A stretch of 32,442 nucleotides of DNA from an uncultured Verrucomicrobiota bacterium. Its GTDB lineage: Bacteria; Verrucomicrobiota; Kiritimatiellia; Kiritimatiellales; Tichowtungiaceae. The stretch lies in contig CAIKGD010000030.1 in assembly GCA_903826865.1 (NCBI GenBank), positions 1-32,442 of the forward strand, given 5' to 3'. A program made the translations under genes and the position numbers. This document shows positions 16,846 through 27,629 of the stretch, piece by piece (the first letter of the stretch is position 1; every line of letters begins with the position of its first letter). The notes under the pieces were generated by a model. The model was not told the origin of the DNA. It saw only the letters and a program-made list of their open reading frames with translations, and searched no databases.

Positions 16846-17685
16846 ATGAAACTTTCGCTGATTACTGCTTGTTACAATGCTGAGGAAACCATTGCCTCGT
16901 CCGTGCGTTCCGTGCTGCCTCAGTCCTGTTCTTGTTTAGAACATCTAATCATAGACGGAGCATCAACGGATGGAACCGTAGACAAAGTTGTTAAGTTGCT
17001 GAATGCGGGGCGTTGGGAAGGGATTCCTCAGCGGTCAGAGATCGGAGGTCAAAGGTCGATCAATTTTAAAACTTATCAACTCAATAACCGGATAACCCGT
17101 ATTTTGTCGGAAAAGGACAGCGGTATGTATGACGCAATGAACAAGGGAATCCGCATGGCAACGGGCGATGTGATCGGCCTGCTGAACTCCGACGACATGC
17201 TGGCGGATTCGGATGTCCTGAGAAAAATATCGCAGGCGTTCAATGATCCGTCTGTCGAAGCAGTTTATGGCGATCTGGTGTATGTCGATCGAGATGAGAC
17301 ATCAAAAGTAAGGCGTGTGTGGCGCTCTGGAATATTTACACCCCGCAAACTTTCACGAGGCTGGCATCCGGCTCATCCAACGCTCTACATCCGCCGTTCT
17401 GTGTATGAAAAGTACGGCTTGTTTAATCTGGAATATGACAGCGCTGCCGATGTGGAGTTTATGATGCGCATTTTCCATCGCGGGGTGAATGTCTGCTACA
17501 TTCCAGAGGTCTTTGTGTGCATGAGAACTGGCGGAGTTAGCAACCGTTTTTCAAACCTTTGGAAACAAAACCGGAACGTTCTCCGCGGCATGCGTGAAAA
17601 CGGTATACCCGTTTCGCCTTTTTACTGGCCTGTTAAAATCACAAACCGCACAACGCAGCTTCTTCGGGGATCAATTGCGCAATGA
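16846..17685 (+). CDS. GT2-family glycosyltransferase with an in-frame heptamer-repeat insert
   Basis: A 279-residue GT-A enzyme. I choose ATG 16846 because MKLSLITACYNAEETI is the canonical beginning of this group; ATG 16810 would add 12 residues overlapping the previous gene. IIDGASTDGTVD near 39-50 binds the nucleotide sugar. LSEKDSGMYDAMNKGIRMATGDVIGLLNSDD near 86-116 is diagnostic and contains the DxD-type NSDD; HPTLYIRRSVYEKYG is further along. Between DGTVDKVV and the LSEKDSGMYD strand there are about 25 extra residues (roughly 54-80). They include QRSEIGGQRS, encoded by a period-7 repeat at 17033-17060. The stop is formed by ATGA at 17682-17685, the first bases of the 42-bp repeat that begins the AbiE cassette. 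In the ancestral arrangement it probably ran directly into the reductase gene now at 19235. Confidence 0.85.
   Translation: MKLSLITACYNAEETIASSVRSVLPQSCSCLEHLIIDGASTDGTVDKVVKLLNAGRWEGIPQRSEIGGQRSINFKTYQLNNRITRILSEKDSGMYDAMNKGIRMATGDVIGLLNSDDMLADSDVLRKISQAFNDPSVEAVYGDLVYVDRDETSKVRRVWRSGIFTPRKLSRGWHPAHPTLYIRRSVYEKYGLFNLEYDSAADVEFMMRIFHRGVNVCYIPEVFVCMRTGGVSNRFSNLWKQNRNVLRGMRENGIPVSPFYWPVKITNRTTQLLRGSIAQ
17033..17060 (+). repeat. Heptanucleotide array inside the GT2 coding sequence
   Basis: Four contiguous period-7 units: GGTCAGA, GATCGGA, GGTCAAA and GGTCGAT (consensus GGTCAGA). They encode part of a residue stretch that has no counterpart in the usual GT2 fold at this position. Confidence 0.6.
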
Positions 17686-17722
17686 AAGTACTGGTTACAG
17701 GTTCAAACGGATTTGTCGGCGG
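17681..17722 (+). repeat. 42-bp perfect direct repeat, left copy (AbiE cassette boundary)
   Basis: Begins AATGAAAGTACTGGTTACAG and is identical over 42 bp to 19234-19275, where it is the true start of the downstream reductase/epimerase gene. The next base differs (G here, A at the right copy). The two copies bracket the AbiEi/AbiEii pair. Confidence 0.95.
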
Positions 17723-17786
17723 GAATTTATACCGGCAGGTGGATTGTAAATTTAGTTGTATTAAAAAGCCTCAAATGGCAATTTAA
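17682..17786 (+). pseudogene. Truncated relic of the reductase/epimerase gene start
   Basis: From ATG 17682 the first 13 codons (MKVLVTGSNGFVG) are identical to the intact gene at 19235. The frame then departs (GNLYRQVDCKFS...) and stops with TAA at 17784-17786 after 34 codons. It keeps the 4-bp ATGA overlap with the GT2 gene, so ribosomes may still start here. The stop lies 4 bp before the AbiEi start, so it could act as a short leader peptide feeding AbiEi translation. Confidence 0.75.
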
Positions 17787-17790
17787 TGCT

Positions 17791-18426
17791 ATGAAATTTG
17801 TAGAGTTGCTGAAAATCGCAGGCGATGATCCGGTTTTTTCATCATCGATTCTGCTGACATATGGGCGGAATCCATCCGATGTCCGGCGGCAGCTTTCCCG
17901 CTGGGTGAATGACGGGAAACTGGTTCAGTTGAGACGCTCACTCTATATGCCGACCGAACCCTATCGCAAGAAAACCGCCCATCCTTTTCTGCTGGCCAAT
18001 CGCGTGAAGAGCGCTTCGTATGTCAGTTTGCAGTCTGCGCTGGCTTGGTACGGACTGATTCCTGAATATGTTCCTGTAGTGACCAGTGTAACGACCGGAC
18101 GCCCCGAACAGCTGAATACCCCGTCAGGAACCTTTGTTTTTAAGCACGTCAAAAAAAGTTTCTTTTCGGGATACAATTGCATCGAACTGACAGACGGCCA
18201 AACTGCGTTTATTGCTTCTCCTGAAAAGGCTCTGCTGGATTTGGTTTATTTGACACCGGGCGCGGACGATGCAGATTATTTATCCGGCCTGCGGATTCAG
18301 CATCCGGAACGACTTGATATGCAACGGTTGCGCCGGTTGGCTGCGTCCGGCGGAAGCGCCAAACTGATCCGTGCGGCGGATCGGCTGTCCGTTTTGCTGC
18401 AGGAAGAGGAGTGTGTTGAGTTATGA
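17791..18426 (+). CDS. abiEi: AbiEi-type antitoxin / transcriptional regulator
   Basis: A 211-residue protein that, by family, represses its own promoter and neutralises the AbiEii toxin (type IV toxin-antitoxin). The start is ATG 17791 (MKFVELLKIAGDDPVFSSS); the longer TTG-started frame from 17713 would read through the repeat junction. The N-terminal winged-helix region (residues 1-60) has ILLTYGRNPSDVRRQLSRWVNDGKLVQLRRSLY. A C-terminal domain follows with YVSLQSALAWYGLIPEYVPVVTSVTTGRP near 81-109 and FIASPEKALLDLVYLTPGADDADYL near 142-166, both typical of AbiEi. Its last codons overlap the toxin start (ATGA, 18423-18426). The 68 bp between the repeat and this start is AT-rich and may hold its promoter. 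Confidence 0.88.
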   Translation: MKFVELLKIAGDDPVFSSSILLTYGRNPSDVRRQLSRWVNDGKLVQLRRSLYMPTEPYRKKTAHPFLLANRVKSASYVSLQSALAWYGLIPEYVPVVTSVTTGRPEQLNTPSGTFVFKHVKKSFFSGYNCIELTDGQTAFIASPEKALLDLVYLTPGADDADYLSGLRIQHPERLDMQRLRRLAASGGSAKLIRAADRLSVLLQEEECVEL

Positions 18427-19238
18427 AGGAATTTCTTTATCAGCAGGTGAGTCAAAAAAAAGATCCCCTCCAGAAAACTAATCTGATCCGGGAGTATTTG
18501 CAGGCCCGCGCTCTGCAGGCCTTGCAGGAGCAGGGCGCTTTTCTGAACTGGGCTTTTCTAGGCGGAACGGCGTTGCGCTTTTTATACGGAATCCCGCGTT
18601 ACTCTGAAGATTTGGATTTCTCTCTGATTGATCCGGAACGTCCCTGCTTGTTTGAAGATATCCTGCGAAAGGTCAAGGCGGCATTTGAAAAGGAGAACTA
18701 TACGGTCAGTATCAAGATATCCCGGCAAAAAGCGGTGCGGTCCGCTTTTATCAAATTTCCGGAGCTTCTGTTTGAGACCGGGGTATCCCCGCATCAAAGT
18801 GAATCGCTCTCCATCAAGCTCGAAGTGGATACCCAGCCTCCCGCCGGAGCGAAAACCGCAACGACTCTTTGCCGCCGCTTTGTGACGGTGAATGTGACCC
18901 ACCACGATAAAGCCTCTCTGCTGGCGGGGAAACTTCACGCGGTTTTGACGCGACAATACGCGAAAGGGCGTGATTGGTACGATCTGGTCTGGTACCTTGC
19001 GGATCGCACATGGCCGGTACCGAATTTTATGCTGTTGAATGCCGCTCTGACTCAAACCGGATGGAACGGACCGGTGCTTTCAGCGGAAACGCTGCCTTCG
19101 GTTTTATCCGGGCGGATTGAAAAATTGGACTGGAATGCAGTGCGTGCCGATGTAATACCTTTTCTTGAGCGTCCGGAGGAAGTGAACTTGATTACAAAGG
19201 ACAATTGTATGCGGCTGACAGAGGGACTTTCCAAATGA
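18423..19238 (+). CDS. abiEii: AbiEii-type nucleotidyltransferase toxin
   Basis: A 271-residue protein of the AbiEii/AbiGii family (DUF1814), a nucleotidyltransferase-like toxin of abortive-infection systems that is held in check by AbiEi. The nucleotidyltransferase core is seen in FLGGTALRFLYGIPRYSEDLDFSL: G47-G48-T49, then D63-x-D65. SIKLEVD follows near 128. HDKASLLAGKLHAVLTRQYAKGRDWYDLVWYL near 161-192 is the conserved C-terminal motif. It overlaps AbiEi by 4 bp. Its stop codon TGA (19236-19238) is supplied by the right-hand 42-bp repeat and overlaps the ATG of the downstream reductase. Base composition is like the surroundings. All key motif residues look intact, so it is probably functional. 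Confidence 0.9.
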   Translation: MKEFLYQQVSQKKDPLQKTNLIREYLQARALQALQEQGAFLNWAFLGGTALRFLYGIPRYSEDLDFSLIDPERPCLFEDILRKVKAAFEKENYTVSIKISRQKAVRSAFIKFPELLFETGVSPHQSESLSIKLEVDTQPPAGAKTATTLCRRFVTVNVTHHDKASLLAGKLHAVLTRQYAKGRDWYDLVWYLADRTWPVPNFMLLNAALTQTGWNGPVLSAETLPSVLSGRIEKLDWNAVRADVIPFLERPEEVNLITKDNCMRLTEGLSK

Positions 19239-19275
19239 AAGTACTGGTTACAGGTTCAAACGGATTTGTCGGCGG
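19234..19275 (+). repeat. 42-bp perfect direct repeat, right copy
   Basis: Identical to 17681-17722. Here it forms the AbiEii stop codon and the first 13 codons of the intact reductase/epimerase gene. Confidence 0.95.
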
Positions 19276-20176
19276 ACACTTGTGCAGCACGCTTGAATCG
19301 GCGGGGATTGAAGTGGTGCGGGCTGTCCGCAATCCGCAGCCGGGCGCCACGGCTGTCGGGCCGATCAACGGGAAAACCGGCTGGTCTGCGGCTCTGACCG
19401 GCGTAGAGGTCGTCGTCCATCTGGCGGCCCGTGTTCATATTTTGAAAGATGCTTCTACTGACCCGCTCGATGAATTCCGGAAGGTGAATGTAGCCGGAAC
19501 CTTGAATCTAGCGCGTCAGGCGGCGCAGGCCGGTGTGAGCCGTTTTATTTTTATCAGCTCCATTGCAGTTCACGGCCTTACTTCAGGCAATCATCCATTT
19601 TCGGCGCGGGATATCCCGGCACCGCATGATTCATACGGCCTTTCAAAACTTGAAGCGGAACAGGGGCTGAAGGAAATTTCGGCGGAAACGGGGTTGCAGT
19701 GTGTTGTTGTCCGCCCGCCGCTGGTTTACGGCCCGGGTGTGGGTGCCAATTTTCTGCGCCTGATGAAACTGGCCGAATCCGGCATTCCGCTTCCGCTGGG
19801 CGCGGTACACAACCTGCGCAGCCCGGTTTTCGTCCGCAATCTGTGCGATTTGATTTTGCAGTGTCTGACGCATCCTGCGGCCGCCGGACAGACTTTTCTG
19901 GTGTCGGATGATGGGGATGTTTCAACCCCGGAGCTGTTGCGCATGCTGTCTGCGGCCATGAATAAAAAAGTACGACTGTTTCCAATGTCTGTAAGTATTC
20001 TTCGACTGGCTGGCCGTTTAACCGGTCATGAGGGAGAGATGACGCGCCTTTGCGGTTCTTTGCAGGTGGACATTTCACGCACAAAAGAAGTGCTGGGATG
20101 GGCTCCGCCTTTTACGCTTGAGCAAGGAATCCGGGAAACGGTTAGAGATTACATGTCGGCAGAAAGGAAGAGCTGA
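19235..20176 (+). CDS. WbpV-type NAD-dependent sugar epimerase/reductase (SDR)
   Basis: A 313-residue extended SDR enzyme resembling WbpV/QuiD-type proteins, which reduce the UDP-4-keto-6-deoxy-HexNAc made by WbpM-type dehydratases to UDP-QuiNAc or UDP-FucNAc. The start is ATG 19235 within the 42-bp repeat; the longer frame from 19205 lies in the toxin gene. Seen: G7-x2-G10-x2-G13, VVHLAARVHILKDASTDPLDEFRKVNVAGTLNLA near 63-96, catalytic SSI at 108-110, Y134-x3-K138 in DSYGLSKLEAEQGL, then VVRPPLVYGPGVGANFLRLM and VSDDGDVSTPELLRML. Downstream genes are the initiating transferase and the dehydratase, which fits this assignment. UDP-glucose 4-epimerase activity is the main alternative. Its translation is now coupled to the AbiEii toxin gene. 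Confidence 0.8.
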   Translation: MKVLVTGSNGFVGGHLCSTLESAGIEVVRAVRNPQPGATAVGPINGKTGWSAALTGVEVVVHLAARVHILKDASTDPLDEFRKVNVAGTLNLARQAAQAGVSRFIFISSIAVHGLTSGNHPFSARDIPAPHDSYGLSKLEAEQGLKEISAETGLQCVVVRPPLVYGPGVGANFLRLMKLAESGIPLPLGAVHNLRSPVFVRNLCDLILQCLTHPAAAGQTFLVSDDGDVSTPELLRMLSAAMNKKVRLFPMSVSILRLAGRLTGHEGEMTRLCGSLQVDISRTKEVLGWAPPFTLEQGIRETVRDYMSAERKS

Positions 20177-24937: not shown

Positions 24938-26512
24938 ATGGAACACCGCAGATTACTCCGATCCGTTGGAACCGTCAGTATTTTCACCATGCTGAGCCGT
25001 TTACTCGGCCTGTTGCGCGAAACCGTCACCGCCGCCGCGTTCGGCACTAGTGCGGTGATGTCTGATTTTGTCGTGGCATTCCGGATTCCGAATATGTTCC
25101 GCGCGCTGTTCGGCGAAGGAGCGCTCTCTTCCGCCTTTGTTCCTGTTTTTTCAGCAATCCGCGCAAAAGAAGGCGAATCGGCTGCATGGCGGTTCGCCCG
25201 CCGGGTCTCCACCCTGCTGGGTGCGGTACTGGTTGTCATTGTTCTGACCGGCATCGGCATCACTTTTTTCCCGTCGCTTGTCGAAGTTTTTCGCCGGGGA
25301 ACCCAGACCCTGCCGCTCCTGCGCATCATGCTTCCGTACCTCTTTTTCATCTGCCTGACCGCGCTGTCGCAGGGAATTCTTAACAGCTTCGGCAAATTCG
25401 CGCTGGCGGCTTTCACGCCCTGTCTGCTCAATATTACCTGGATCGCCTTCGTACTGTTTGTCTGTCCTCGCATGGGCGCAACGCCCGAAGACCAGATTGC
25501 CGGCGTCGCGCTCGGTGTACTGGTGGCGGGTGCGGTGCAGCTGGCCGCGCAGCTTCCCGCCATGTACCGGCTGGGCTGGCGTCCGGGCGTTGACCTGAAT
25601 GCCCGCGACCCGCAGGTCACCCGTTTTCTCGGCCTGATGGGCCCGTCCGCACTCGGCCAGTCCGTTTCGCAGATAAACATGACCATTAACAGCATCATGG
25701 CGCGCTGGGCTACGCCGTGGGCAGCCGCCACCATGTATTTTGCCGAACGTCTGCTCTATTTTCCTCAAGGTATTCTGGCCACTGCCATGAGTACCGTTCT
25801 GCTGCCGGTCTTTTCCGGCCACGCCGCCGTCGGCGAAGAAGAACGTATTCGCGTAACGATCAACCGCGCCTTGCGCATGCTTCTGTTTGTTATGATACCG
25901 GCGGCGGTCGGCCTGATGGCGCTGGCCCGTCCGGTCACCGAAATGCTGCTGGGGTGGGGCAAATTCGATATCGATTCCGTAGACCGCACGGCGGCGGTGC
26001 TGCGGGTTTATGCGCCGGGCCTTTTCTTCTTCGGGTTGGCCAAAGTGTTTGTTCCGGCTTTCTACGGACTGGGCGACACCTGCACGCCATACCGCAACGG
26101 TCTCTACAGCGTCGGCATCAACTTTTCACTTAACCTGGCGTTTACGATGACGCTTCCAACGGAATATAAAGCCATGAGCCTTGCCGGTTCAGCCGTGGTG
26201 TCGGAAGCTTTCAACGGACTGTCACTCGGCTGGAAACTGGGACGGCGCATCGGATCGCCCGGCTGGCTTTCCGTGCTGGCCGGTGCCGGCCGCGCGCTGA
26301 TCGCTGCGGTCATAATGGGAGTGACGGTGATCTTTGTTCACGGCTGGATTTTTCAGGCGCTGGATAGTCATCTCGCCGCAAAACTGGCGCAGTTTATCTC
26401 CGTCGGCGGTGCCATCGCCATCGGCATGACCGTTTATCTGCTCGCCTCCGTCCTGCTCTGCCGCCGCGAAGCCGCGCAGGTTTTCAACGCCGTTTTGCGC
26501 CGTAAAGGATGA
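24938..26512 (+). CDS. murJ: Lipid II flippase MurJ (MviN)
   Basis: A 524-residue MOP-superfamily membrane protein that flips the peptidoglycan precursor lipid II across the inner membrane. The start is ATG 24938 (MEHRRLLRSVG); a TTG at 24917 would add seven residues. MurJ hallmarks are SRLLGLLRETVTAAAFG with R21, G24 and R27, then D43 and R55 in DFVVAFRIPNMFRALFGEGALSSAFVPVF (residues 43-71). YLFFICLTALSQGILNSF, AERLLYFPQGILATAMSTVLLPVFS and FFFGLAKVFVPAFYGLGDT follow. About 14 hydrophobic helices are seen. It is divergent from lpxC. The last 13 codons (AQVFNAVLRRKG) recur in diverged form at 27591-27629, beyond the following lipoprotein gene. Confidence 0.95.
   Translation: MEHRRLLRSVGTVSIFTMLSRLLGLLRETVTAAAFGTSAVMSDFVVAFRIPNMFRALFGEGALSSAFVPVFSAIRAKEGESAAWRFARRVSTLLGAVLVVIVLTGIGITFFPSLVEVFRRGTQTLPLLRIMLPYLFFICLTALSQGILNSFGKFALAAFTPCLLNITWIAFVLFVCPRMGATPEDQIAGVALGVLVAGAVQLAAQLPAMYRLGWRPGVDLNARDPQVTRFLGLMGPSALGQSVSQINMTINSIMARWATPWAAATMYFAERLLYFPQGILATAMSTVLLPVFSGHAAVGEEERIRVTINRALRMLLFVMIPAAVGLMALARPVTEMLLGWGKFDIDSVDRTAAVLRVYAPGLFFFGLAKVFVPAFYGLGDTCTPYRNGLYSVGINFSLNLAFTMTLPTEYKAMSLAGSAVVSEAFNGLSLGWKLGRRIGSPGWLSVLAGAGRALIAAVIMGVTVIFVHGWIFQALDSHLAAKLAQFISVGGAIAIGMTVYLLASVLLCRREAAQVFNAVLRRKG
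26474..26512 (+). repeat. murJ 3' end, copy 1 of a 39-bp diverged repeat
   Basis: The last 13 codons including the stop of murJ. They match 27591-27629 at 33 of 39 bases, aligned without gaps; most differences are at third codon positions. Confidence 0.7.
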
Positions 26513-26590
26513 GGCGATGGCAGGATATGAGGCAAGAAAAACACTGCATTCCGAGATTCGCCGACCATCCGATTTGTATATTTTTGAAGA

Positions 26591-26619
26591 TTGACCTTCC
26601 TGTCCGTCCTCAGCATATT
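26591..26619 (+). promoter_or_regulatory. Candidate promoter for the lipoprotein gene
   Basis: TTGACC (26591-26596) and CATATT (26614-26619) are spaced by 17 bp, 67 bp before the chosen start codon. The 173-bp gap after murJ is AT-rich compared with both neighbours, consistent with an independent promoter. Confidence 0.3.
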
Positions 26620-26685
26620 GATAAAAATACGAGTATTTGACCGAAACAGTTTTTGTGAAACTTAATAAAAATGCAGAGGAAAAAT

Positions 26686-27387
26686 ATGTTTAGACGGATT
26701 TGCTATGCCGTGATTTCCCTTGTTTGTTGTGTCTTTTTGACAACCGTTACCGGTTGCTATGCGTATAAATTCAAGGGACAGGTTAGTAACCCTCAGCCGG
26801 TGATTTCACCGGCTTCTATTAAGTACAGGCTGAACACTGTCAGTTTTGATAAAAAATCCGGATGTAAATGTCGAAGTAACCCTGCTTTTTCTGTTGCAAA
26901 AACAGGAGGGCCTTTGGCAAGTAAGGATGACATAGAACGTGTATTGGTGCGTCAATATCCGGATTTATTTACCAAATCTTCCGTCGGTGTACCGGTGGAT
27001 GTCGAAATAAAAATTACTGAATCAAAAGATGCTGTGGGGACATGGGGGAGTCTTGTTTCAGGAGCCGCAACAGCATTGGCGCTTATTCCCCCTTACATTG
27101 GTGGAGTGAAAGATGTTTGTGAGATTCGTGTTGGTATAGCAAATAACGATAACAATCAATCGAACAAAGAAATTGTTGGGTTTGCTTCCCGGGCGCAAGT
27201 CTCTCTGACACCACTTGGATTCCTGTTGTCAGACCCGCAAAAAACGTATGTAGGGGCAACTCGTTACGGAAGCGGAGTTAAGCTTATATGGTGTGATGGG
27301 GACATGAGAAAAGCGCAACAAGAAGTTTTTACGGAAGAGGTTGCCAAAGCGGTTGCTTTAGCTGTCACCCGCCGTAAAATTAACTAA
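26686..27387 (+). CDS. Predicted lipoprotein of unknown function
   Basis: A 233-residue protein with a lipoprotein-type signal: MFRRICYAVISLVCCVFLTTVTGC, with a basic n-region, hydrophobic core and lipobox ending at cysteine 24. AGAGGA lies 5 bp before ATG 26686; ATG 26671 would add five residues and lacks such a site. The mature part has VERVLVRQYPDLF-like sequence near 83-95 (DIERVLVRQYPDLFTKSSVGVPVDVEIKI), a glycine/alanine-rich hydrophobic stretch GSLVSGAATALALIPPYIGG near 124-143, and an acidic C-terminal helix. The VPVDVEI beta pattern plus a hydrophobic patch recalls envelope lipoproteins in general, but I recognise no family. Lower GC and more adenine-rich codons than murJ suggest a different origin. 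It is flanked by the two murJ-tail copies. Confidence 0.8.
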   Translation: MFRRICYAVISLVCCVFLTTVTGCYAYKFKGQVSNPQPVISPASIKYRLNTVSFDKKSGCKCRSNPAFSVAKTGGPLASKDDIERVLVRQYPDLFTKSSVGVPVDVEIKITESKDAVGTWGSLVSGAATALALIPPYIGGVKDVCEIRVGIANNDNNQSNKEIVGFASRAQVSLTPLGFLLSDPQKTYVGATRYGSGVKLIWCDGDMRKAQQEVFTEEVAKAVALAVTRRKIN

Positions 27388-27590
27388 AGGCGGTTTCCAA
27401 CGGCAAGCATCCAGCGATAACGGGGTTTAATTTTGATTACTCGTTCAGTTTTAATAGAACTGGTGCAGAATACCTCGCGATTTGTCGCGGGAATGGTCGC
27501 AAATGCCGGGAAAGTCTGGCGGTGAAAAGATCCATCCATCTGATTTAACTGGCATCGTAAATTTGAACTGAAAGCTTCTGTTTGCGCTTC
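27388..27590. other. Non-coding stretch after the lipoprotein gene
   Basis: No convincing gene on either strand. A 7-bp hairpin CTCGCGA-TTTG-TCGCGGG (27474-27491, one G-T pair) is present without a T-run. An 89-codon minus-strand frame (27384-27653) crosses the whole stretch but shows no recognisable domain and overlaps the murJ-tail relic. Confidence 0.4.
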
Positions 27591-27629
27591 ACGCAGGTCT
27601 TCAAAGCCGTCCTGCGCCGTAAAGGATAA
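27591..27629 (+). pseudogene. Second, diverged copy of the murJ C-terminal codons
   Basis: Reads TQVFKAVLRRKG then TAA, against AQVFNAVLRRKG then TGA at the real murJ end. 33 of 39 bases match, with changes mostly at synonymous third positions. Upstream in the same frame is FCLRF, faintly like the CRREA of murJ, then a stop. This looks like the remnant of a homologous gene end, not a recent duplicate. Confidence 0.55.

Follow-up and report, generated by a model that had tools for sequence, protein, structure and literature searches.

Accessory genes lodged between duplicated gene ends are of a kind already known from insertion with long target duplication and from minimal mobile elements; what is new in the genus considered here is their frequency, their varied cargo and the fact that the copies have diverged like those of different species. 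Insertion with long target duplication was found in Helicobacter pylori (Nobusato et al., 2000, as cited in PMC3031569, PMC1643837, and PMC3874152), and the citing papers describe it for restriction-modification units and link it to genome rearrangement. The duplications treated below resemble it in that single accessory genes, including toxin and defence types, are enclosed by direct repeats of tens to a few hundred base pairs (a 36-bp core at the lipoprotein gene behind murJ, 35–283 bp elsewhere), neither a transposase nor an integrase being present. They differ from it in their mixed cargo (lipoproteins, Fic, AbiE, YhcG nuclease, ParE, glycosyltransferase) and in that most of the copies have diverged like orthologues of different species and not as copies within a single genome would. 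Repeats derived from a target are expected to be nearly identical when young and to drift freely when old, which does not describe the pooled diverged cases and applies only to the exact copies at AbiE and YhcG. Copies of the murJ type would be better called allele ends than target duplications.

With the minimal mobile elements of Neisseria (Saunders and Snyder, 2002), as PMC3082526 defines them, the duplications would share that whole-gene cassettes, variable between strains at a fixed place, are imported by homologous recombination in conserved genes. In our genus, by contrast, apparently only one flank is homologous and the old gene end is left behind. In minimal mobile elements both flanks reportedly recombine by homology, and no gene end is duplicated. 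A third relevant process is the homology-facilitated illegitimate recombination of Acinetobacter (de Vries and Wackernagel, 2002, a title cited in PMC8116780). It is a laboratory process in a competent bacterium. Foreign DNA that is anchored by homology on one side and sealed by a non-homologous joint on the other would give exactly the scar anatomy described here.

The murJ Locus

The window, by which we mean the whole analyzed stretch of 32,442 nucleotides, is contig C30 of G000, a MAG of 2.64 Mb (98% complete, 88 contigs). The relatives of its murJ include a Pontiellaceae MAG and other Verrucomicrobia/Lentisphaerae MAGs, and in amino acids the gene is 92–93% identical to murJ of G008, G013, and G005. 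From left to right (murJ with its end Ta, spacer, lipoprotein gene, decayed PLD end, second murJ end Tb, convergent pssA) the parts are as follows.

24938–26512, plus strand: murJ, lipid II flippase of 524 aa, intact (Pfam MurJ PF03023, E 3.7e-101)
26474–26512, plus strand: Ta, the murJ 3′ end attached to the gene, included in the alignment of the tail family
26513–26569, plus strand: 57-nt spacer, common to the DNA behind the second murJ tail of G008
26671–27387, plus strand: accessory lipoprotein gene, 238 aa
27500–27590, minus strand: decayed 3′ end of a phospholipase-D/cardiolipin-synthase (PLD) gene, truncated at the junction with Tb
27591–27629, plus strand: Tb, the detached second murJ 3′ end with its own stop codon
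27660–29212, minus strand: pssA (CDP-alcohol phosphatidyltransferase) and psd (phosphatidylserine decarboxylase), both assigned by Pfam

The lipoprotein belongs to a rare family, which is present in seven other genomes out of 346 in the class at 22–30% identity, and a scan against Pfam and PADLOC gave no match. Its structure model (pLDDT 68) has TraT as the best PDB match (E 1e-4, TM about 0.34), which hints weakly at a distant likeness to outer-membrane lipoproteins of the TraT/LptE/CsgG type. A sequence-only reading of the window had described the insert as the lipoprotein gene and its flanks; the lipoprotein gene is there, but the PLD remnant at 27500–27590 had escaped notice. This remnant of 91 bp lies directly before Tb and is 80% identical over 74 nt to an intact PLD gene of the same genome (contig C88), where that gene adjoins rho, and 76% identical over 100 nt to the PLD gene of G008. 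The name PLD is one that we presume from the translation rather than from a family scan.

On the other side of Tb, pssA converges on the duplicated end, its stop lying 30 bp from that of Tb. It was sought in the other members of the genus and is absent from them, their pssA-like matches being 32–41% identical, yet the orthologues of the pair pssA-psd in other families are 74–79% identical, and the pair was therefore probably acquired. G000 has two pssA-psd pairs, and the one on contig C37 has relatives in much of the genus.

Two Copies of the murJ 3′ End

The sequence-only reading had reported that 26474–26512 and 27591–27629 match without gaps at 33 of 39 bases and that both end in a stop. 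This is borne out: Ta and Tb end in TGA and TAA, and within the core (26475–26510 and 27592–27627) 32 of 36 bases (89%) are identical, with a Smith-Waterman score of 52. The highest score among 300 and 2000 first-order Markov/dinucleotide shuffles of the region was 29, which excludes a chance match as the origin of the pair. A search of the whole genome with the 63-nt tail of a relative retrieved Ta and Tb, and the remaining matches were at chance level; the worry raised in the earlier reading, that such a match might turn up by chance across the genome, is thereby removed, and the murJ tail is also excluded as a genome-wide repeat, its copies being found only behind murJ. A murJ end resembling the second copy does exist in a relative, as that reading had required for its proposal to stand: the closest to Tb is the second tail of G008, T2, with 33 of 36 bases.

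How the two copies came to differ is less easily read from this locus. When the six differences are placed in frame, three fall in synonymous codons, one exchanges stop for stop and two are non-synonymous (one of them at the edge), and of the four differences in the 36-bp core three are at third positions. It is thus correct, as had been claimed, that the differences are mainly synonymous, but the statement rests on very few sites. In the tail alignment most of the derived synonymous changes are located in Ta, and the pattern is therefore by itself no proof that Tb evolved as coding DNA. At the murJ locus alone the argument from codon-style divergence is weak, 39 bp being insufficient for it.

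murJ in Related Genomes

Upstream, the order lpxL-lpxC-murJ is largely conserved among the relatives. Downstream, the gene behind murJ varies in nearly every close relative examined (rpmJ-rpsM in G013, a lipA-like gene in G012, Fic in G005), except that Fic is common to G005 and G008, and the right-hand neighbour is unconserved as well. G013, G005, and G012 have a single murJ tail each, but a different gene behind each, hence no clean empty site is available for comparison. The names pdxH, lipA, rpmJ, and rpsM are those that we presume from reading the translations and not from a family-library scan.

In G008 three murJ ends are stacked in the order T1, Fic, T2, spacer, small membrane-protein ORF, remnant of a Fic promoter, T3, and PLD, with the PLD gene facing murJ. 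T2 comprises 63 nt (91–92%) and is followed by the same 57-nt spacer as in the window; over 26451–26569 the window matches G008:C3 481605–481721 at 80%, with a score that 0 of 2000 shuffles reached. REP-like palindromes (CAGGCTG(G)AAGCCTGT) occur in G008 after both T1 and T3 (G008:C3 around 481218 and 482729–482860; stretch L160, 180–300 and 1729–1860). Just before T3 lies a CTTGACC repeat that derives from the promoter of Fic and hints that a second Fic copy was once present; as a recombination site near T1 and T3 this repeat was rejected, since it belongs with the Fic promoter.

The order PLD-pdxH-rpsM is found in G005, G006, and G002, and an ancestral order murJ, PLD, pdxH, rpmJ, rpsM, pieced together from G008, G005, G006, G002, and G013, is suggested by these arrangements. 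The position of PLD beside rho in G000 appears to be a derived joint, because rho has another neighbour, shared by G013, G008, G004, and G007. The relocated PLD gene of other genomes has no murJ tail next to it, and none was found behind murJ in the remaining relatives.

Two observations concern exchange at murJ itself. Between G005 and G008, the Fic genes behind murJ are 91.6% identical and the murJ genes 85.3%; cargo that is more alike than its host gene seems to move between species at this place. In G002, murJ is a mosaic (stretch L163 of G002:C6, 2906–4351, minus strand), the body of which is of the second murJ type of the genus (54–70% amino acid identity to that type, about 47–53% to the window's type), while its last approximately 105 nt are 80% identical in DNA to the murJ of the window. 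A body of foreign type joined to a native end shows that recombination does end inside the murJ tail. The G002 gene is also split by a frameshift, either real or derived from the assembly.

Divergence of the Copies

Twelve gene-end duplication pairs from two genomes show differences and can be placed in frame. When they are pooled, third codon positions hold 67 of the 95 differences (71%), synonymous changes outnumber non-synonymous ones by 63 codons to 27, and there are 6 indel columns. The benchmark is murJ compared between species, for which the third-position fraction is 0.76–0.80 over the whole gene and 0.70–0.72 over the last 300 nt. For a copy that drifts in place beside a functional partner a simple model predicts about 0.44, and the excess over this value has a p of 1.6e-7 (1.2e-6 without murJ). 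An internal control is provided by the PLD remnant, in which the differences from the intact gene are evenly spread over the three codon positions (8/5/8) and accompanied by indels, as dead DNA predicts, which indicates that it drifted as non-coding DNA. Given that the pooled fraction is like that of the last 300 nt of murJ between species, the best reading of most second copies is that they are alleles which diverged in separate lineages, as working genes, and were later brought together. The identity of the Ta/Tb core is about the same as that of murJ between species (85–86%). The earlier claim that the copies diverged as coding sequence is weak with the four core differences at murJ, but strong over the 12 loci, and the view that the second copy is not a recent or drifting duplicate is supported.

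Gene-End Duplications in the Genus

The census counted direct repeats in which one copy contained a gene terminus and the other lay on the outer side of the same gene; it ran over genomic stretches covering about 57% of G008 (its size being rounded) and 27% of G000, both of which are MAGs, G008 in 7 contigs. It gave 19 such duplications in 1.96 Mb: G008 contributed 14 pairs from 1.25 Mb and G000 the other 5 from 0.71 Mb. Applied to murJ neighbourhoods from other phyla (70 loci, which are short core regions, 0.88 Mb in all), the same procedure yielded none, and it yielded none in 86 kb from another family of the class. About 14 of the 19 are clear cases, a few of the others being a tRNA half or paralogous gene starts. 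The scarred gene ends include those of murJ, leuS, hisF, dtd, an aspartate and another aminotransferase, two radical-SAM genes and a glycosyltransferase gene; at the gene start the scar is found in an epimerase gene, idi and an amidohydrolase gene. The cargo includes, besides the kinds named at the outset, a DUF4143 ATPase. It should be noted that names such as leuS, hisF, and idi are what we take these genes to be from their translations, and that the mechanical ORF calls may have set wrong boundaries for some of the scarred or inserted genes. Orthologues of dtd and of other scarred genes, as a guide to which copy is foreign, were sought in the sampled stretches of the second genome and not found there.

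The longest clear scar is a copy of the leuS 3′ end (270 bp, 95%) beyond an inserted lipoprotein-like gene (G008:C2 131326–132549; L333, 11326–12549). The 3′ end of dtd (D-Tyr-tRNA deacylase) is repeated (151 bp, 87%) beyond a glycosyltransferase gene and next to a DUF1016 gene (G000:C48 55917–57424; L242, 15917–17424), and in the detached copy the reading frame remains open up to a stop. A ParE-like toxin gene is bracketed by two copies (39 bp, 90%) of the amidohydrolase gene start (G008:C1 36741–37451; L342, 16741–17451). The 5′ half of a putative tRNA is repeated (45 bp, 96%) on both sides of a 5-kb block (G008:C3 573222–578366; L293, 12222–17366) of what appear to be MurQ, a sodium symporter and a hexosaminidase.

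Exact Copies of Gene Starts

Left of murJ the window contains a second bracketed accessory locus.

17681–17722, plus strand: detached exact copy of the epimerase gene start, left of AbiE (42 of 42 bases identical to 19234–19275)
17713–19238, plus strand: AbiEi and AbiEii, a type IV toxin-antitoxin (AbiEii PF08843, E 5e-29; PADLOC AbiEi E 2.8e-53, AbiEii E 1.7e-70)
19234–20176, plus strand: NAD-dependent epimerase with intact start, right of AbiE (PF01370, E 6.3e-33)

That AbiE is a second case of an accessory gene between copies of a gene terminus had been put forward from the sequence and is real, but its form is distinct, the repeat being exact, 42 bp long and taken from the start of the epimerase gene. 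G011 carries the same epimerase gene start at 72%, and the 1.5 kb before it shows no match to AbiE at the DNA level. The same form as AbiE is seen in G008 at a gene for a YhcG/DUF1016 nuclease: idi follows it, and an exact 56-bp copy of the idi start flanks it (G008:C5 130179–131345; L301, 18179–19345).

Origin of the Second murJ End

We consider it fairly probable that the second murJ end is the scar of a gene import by one-sided recombination with a related species. The insert is probably the unit of murJ end, spacer, lipoprotein gene and PLD end from a relative, and the recipient's own murJ end would have been left before pssA. The recipient would originally have had the order murJ-Tb-pssA, and DNA of a related species with the order murJ, spacer, lipoprotein gene, PLD would have entered the cell. 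On one side, homologous recombination inside murJ would have given the gene the donor tail Ta; on the other, non-homologous joining would have cut the donor PLD gene and landed inside the recipient's murJ end, of which Tb would remain. Such an import would be tolerated because murJ stays whole, and the donor order is plausible in view of G008, in which T2 has the same spacer and PLD the same orientation. The same process would account for the stacked tails of G008 and for about a dozen other gene-end scars in the genus. That Ta is the foreign end and Tb the native one, and the mechanism of joining, we infer.

For the import speak the exact stop of the PLD piece at Tb, with the intact gene elsewhere beside rho, and the 30 bp between the stops of Tb and pssA, which is a natural convergent spacing. 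In its favor are also the orthologue-like differences between copies, the agreement of the Ta/Tb identity with that of murJ between species, the apparent movement of Fic at murJ, the recombination that ends inside the tail in G002 and the contrast between the census and its control. Against it, the similarity of G000 murJ to the sampled relatives shows no change point along the gene that would mark a donor tract, and the window's pssA is missing from all sampled members of the genus, so that the recipient order has not been seen. Drift in the PLD remnant is roughly double that in Tb, which is odd if both became non-coding simultaneously, although the numbers are small, and two of the cleanest cases (AbiE, and YhcG/DUF1016 at idi) have identical copies, which also fits plain target duplication. 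The proposal of the sequence-only reading, that a foreign murJ end came in with the lipoprotein gene and the old tail stayed behind, is thus supported in part, by the 12 loci and by the likeness of Tb to T2 of G008.

An insertion within one genome might have copied 36–39 bp of murJ, with the detached copy drifting afterwards. The anatomy is indeed that of long target duplication by restriction-modification units, as PMC3874152 and PMC1643837 describe it, and the exact 42- and 56-bp copies around AbiE and the YhcG nuclease look like fresh duplications; the pooled third-position excess and the near-absence of indels reject non-coding drift for most of the 3′ cases, however, and the PLD remnant is left unexplained, which makes this origin rather unlikely for the murJ tail. 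It is also conceivable that murJ, spacer, lipoprotein gene and PLD are native and that Tb and pssA arrived on the other side, either by a tandem duplication from murJ end to PLD end that joined PLD to Tb, the second copy being replaced later, or with Tb on foreign DNA from a species with murJ beside pssA. An ancestral order with PLD following murJ can be reconstructed, the joint of PLD and rho in G000 is derived, and a tandem duplication alone would put a PLD end directly before a murJ end. But the flank downstream of Tb has no significant homology to the native spacer (p 0.05 and 0.19) and is not demonstrably ancestral, an extra event is needed to bring in pssA-psd, and the stacked tails of G008 require a separate explanation; we regard such a rearrangement as unlikely. 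An inversion between murJ-PLD and rho was rejected as the whole story: it agrees with the orientations, but the window does not contain the gene that was ancestrally next to rho.

Very improbable is that the murJ 3′ end serves a site-specific integrase as attachment site, the tails being attL and attR. Integration that restores a gene at its 3′ end and the repeated use of one site in G008 would agree with it. Yet elements of this type have an integrase gene and a constant core site, and here there is no integrase gene between the tails in either the window or G008, the tails vary in length (36, 55–63, and approximately 35 bp) and in their left edges, and the same scar is seen at many unrelated genes (leuS, hisF, dtd, idi, aminotransferase, radical-SAM), which is beyond the use of one integrase.

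Possibly, although we think it doubtful, accessory genes of the genus travel as recombinase-free cassettes with the ends of housekeeping genes as attachment sites. A circle made of the cargo and one gene end would be released between the two copies and would enter the corresponding end in another species by a single homologous crossover. If true, this would account for the collection of several cassettes at murJ, for the presence of the same Fic gene behind murJ in two species and for the orthologue-like differences between the copies.

Significance

The recurrence of the scar across the genus points to genes being imported frequently through recombination with related species. One-sided recombination leaves a legible trace in duplicated gene ends, from which the entry point of the foreign DNA, its cargo and, with more strains, its source species can be read. 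In this uncultured genus such ends number about ten per megabase, and their cargo includes toxin and defence genes; this suggests that accessory genes move singly, with neither transposase nor integrase, and gene-end duplications offer a simple way to detect such imports in any genome.
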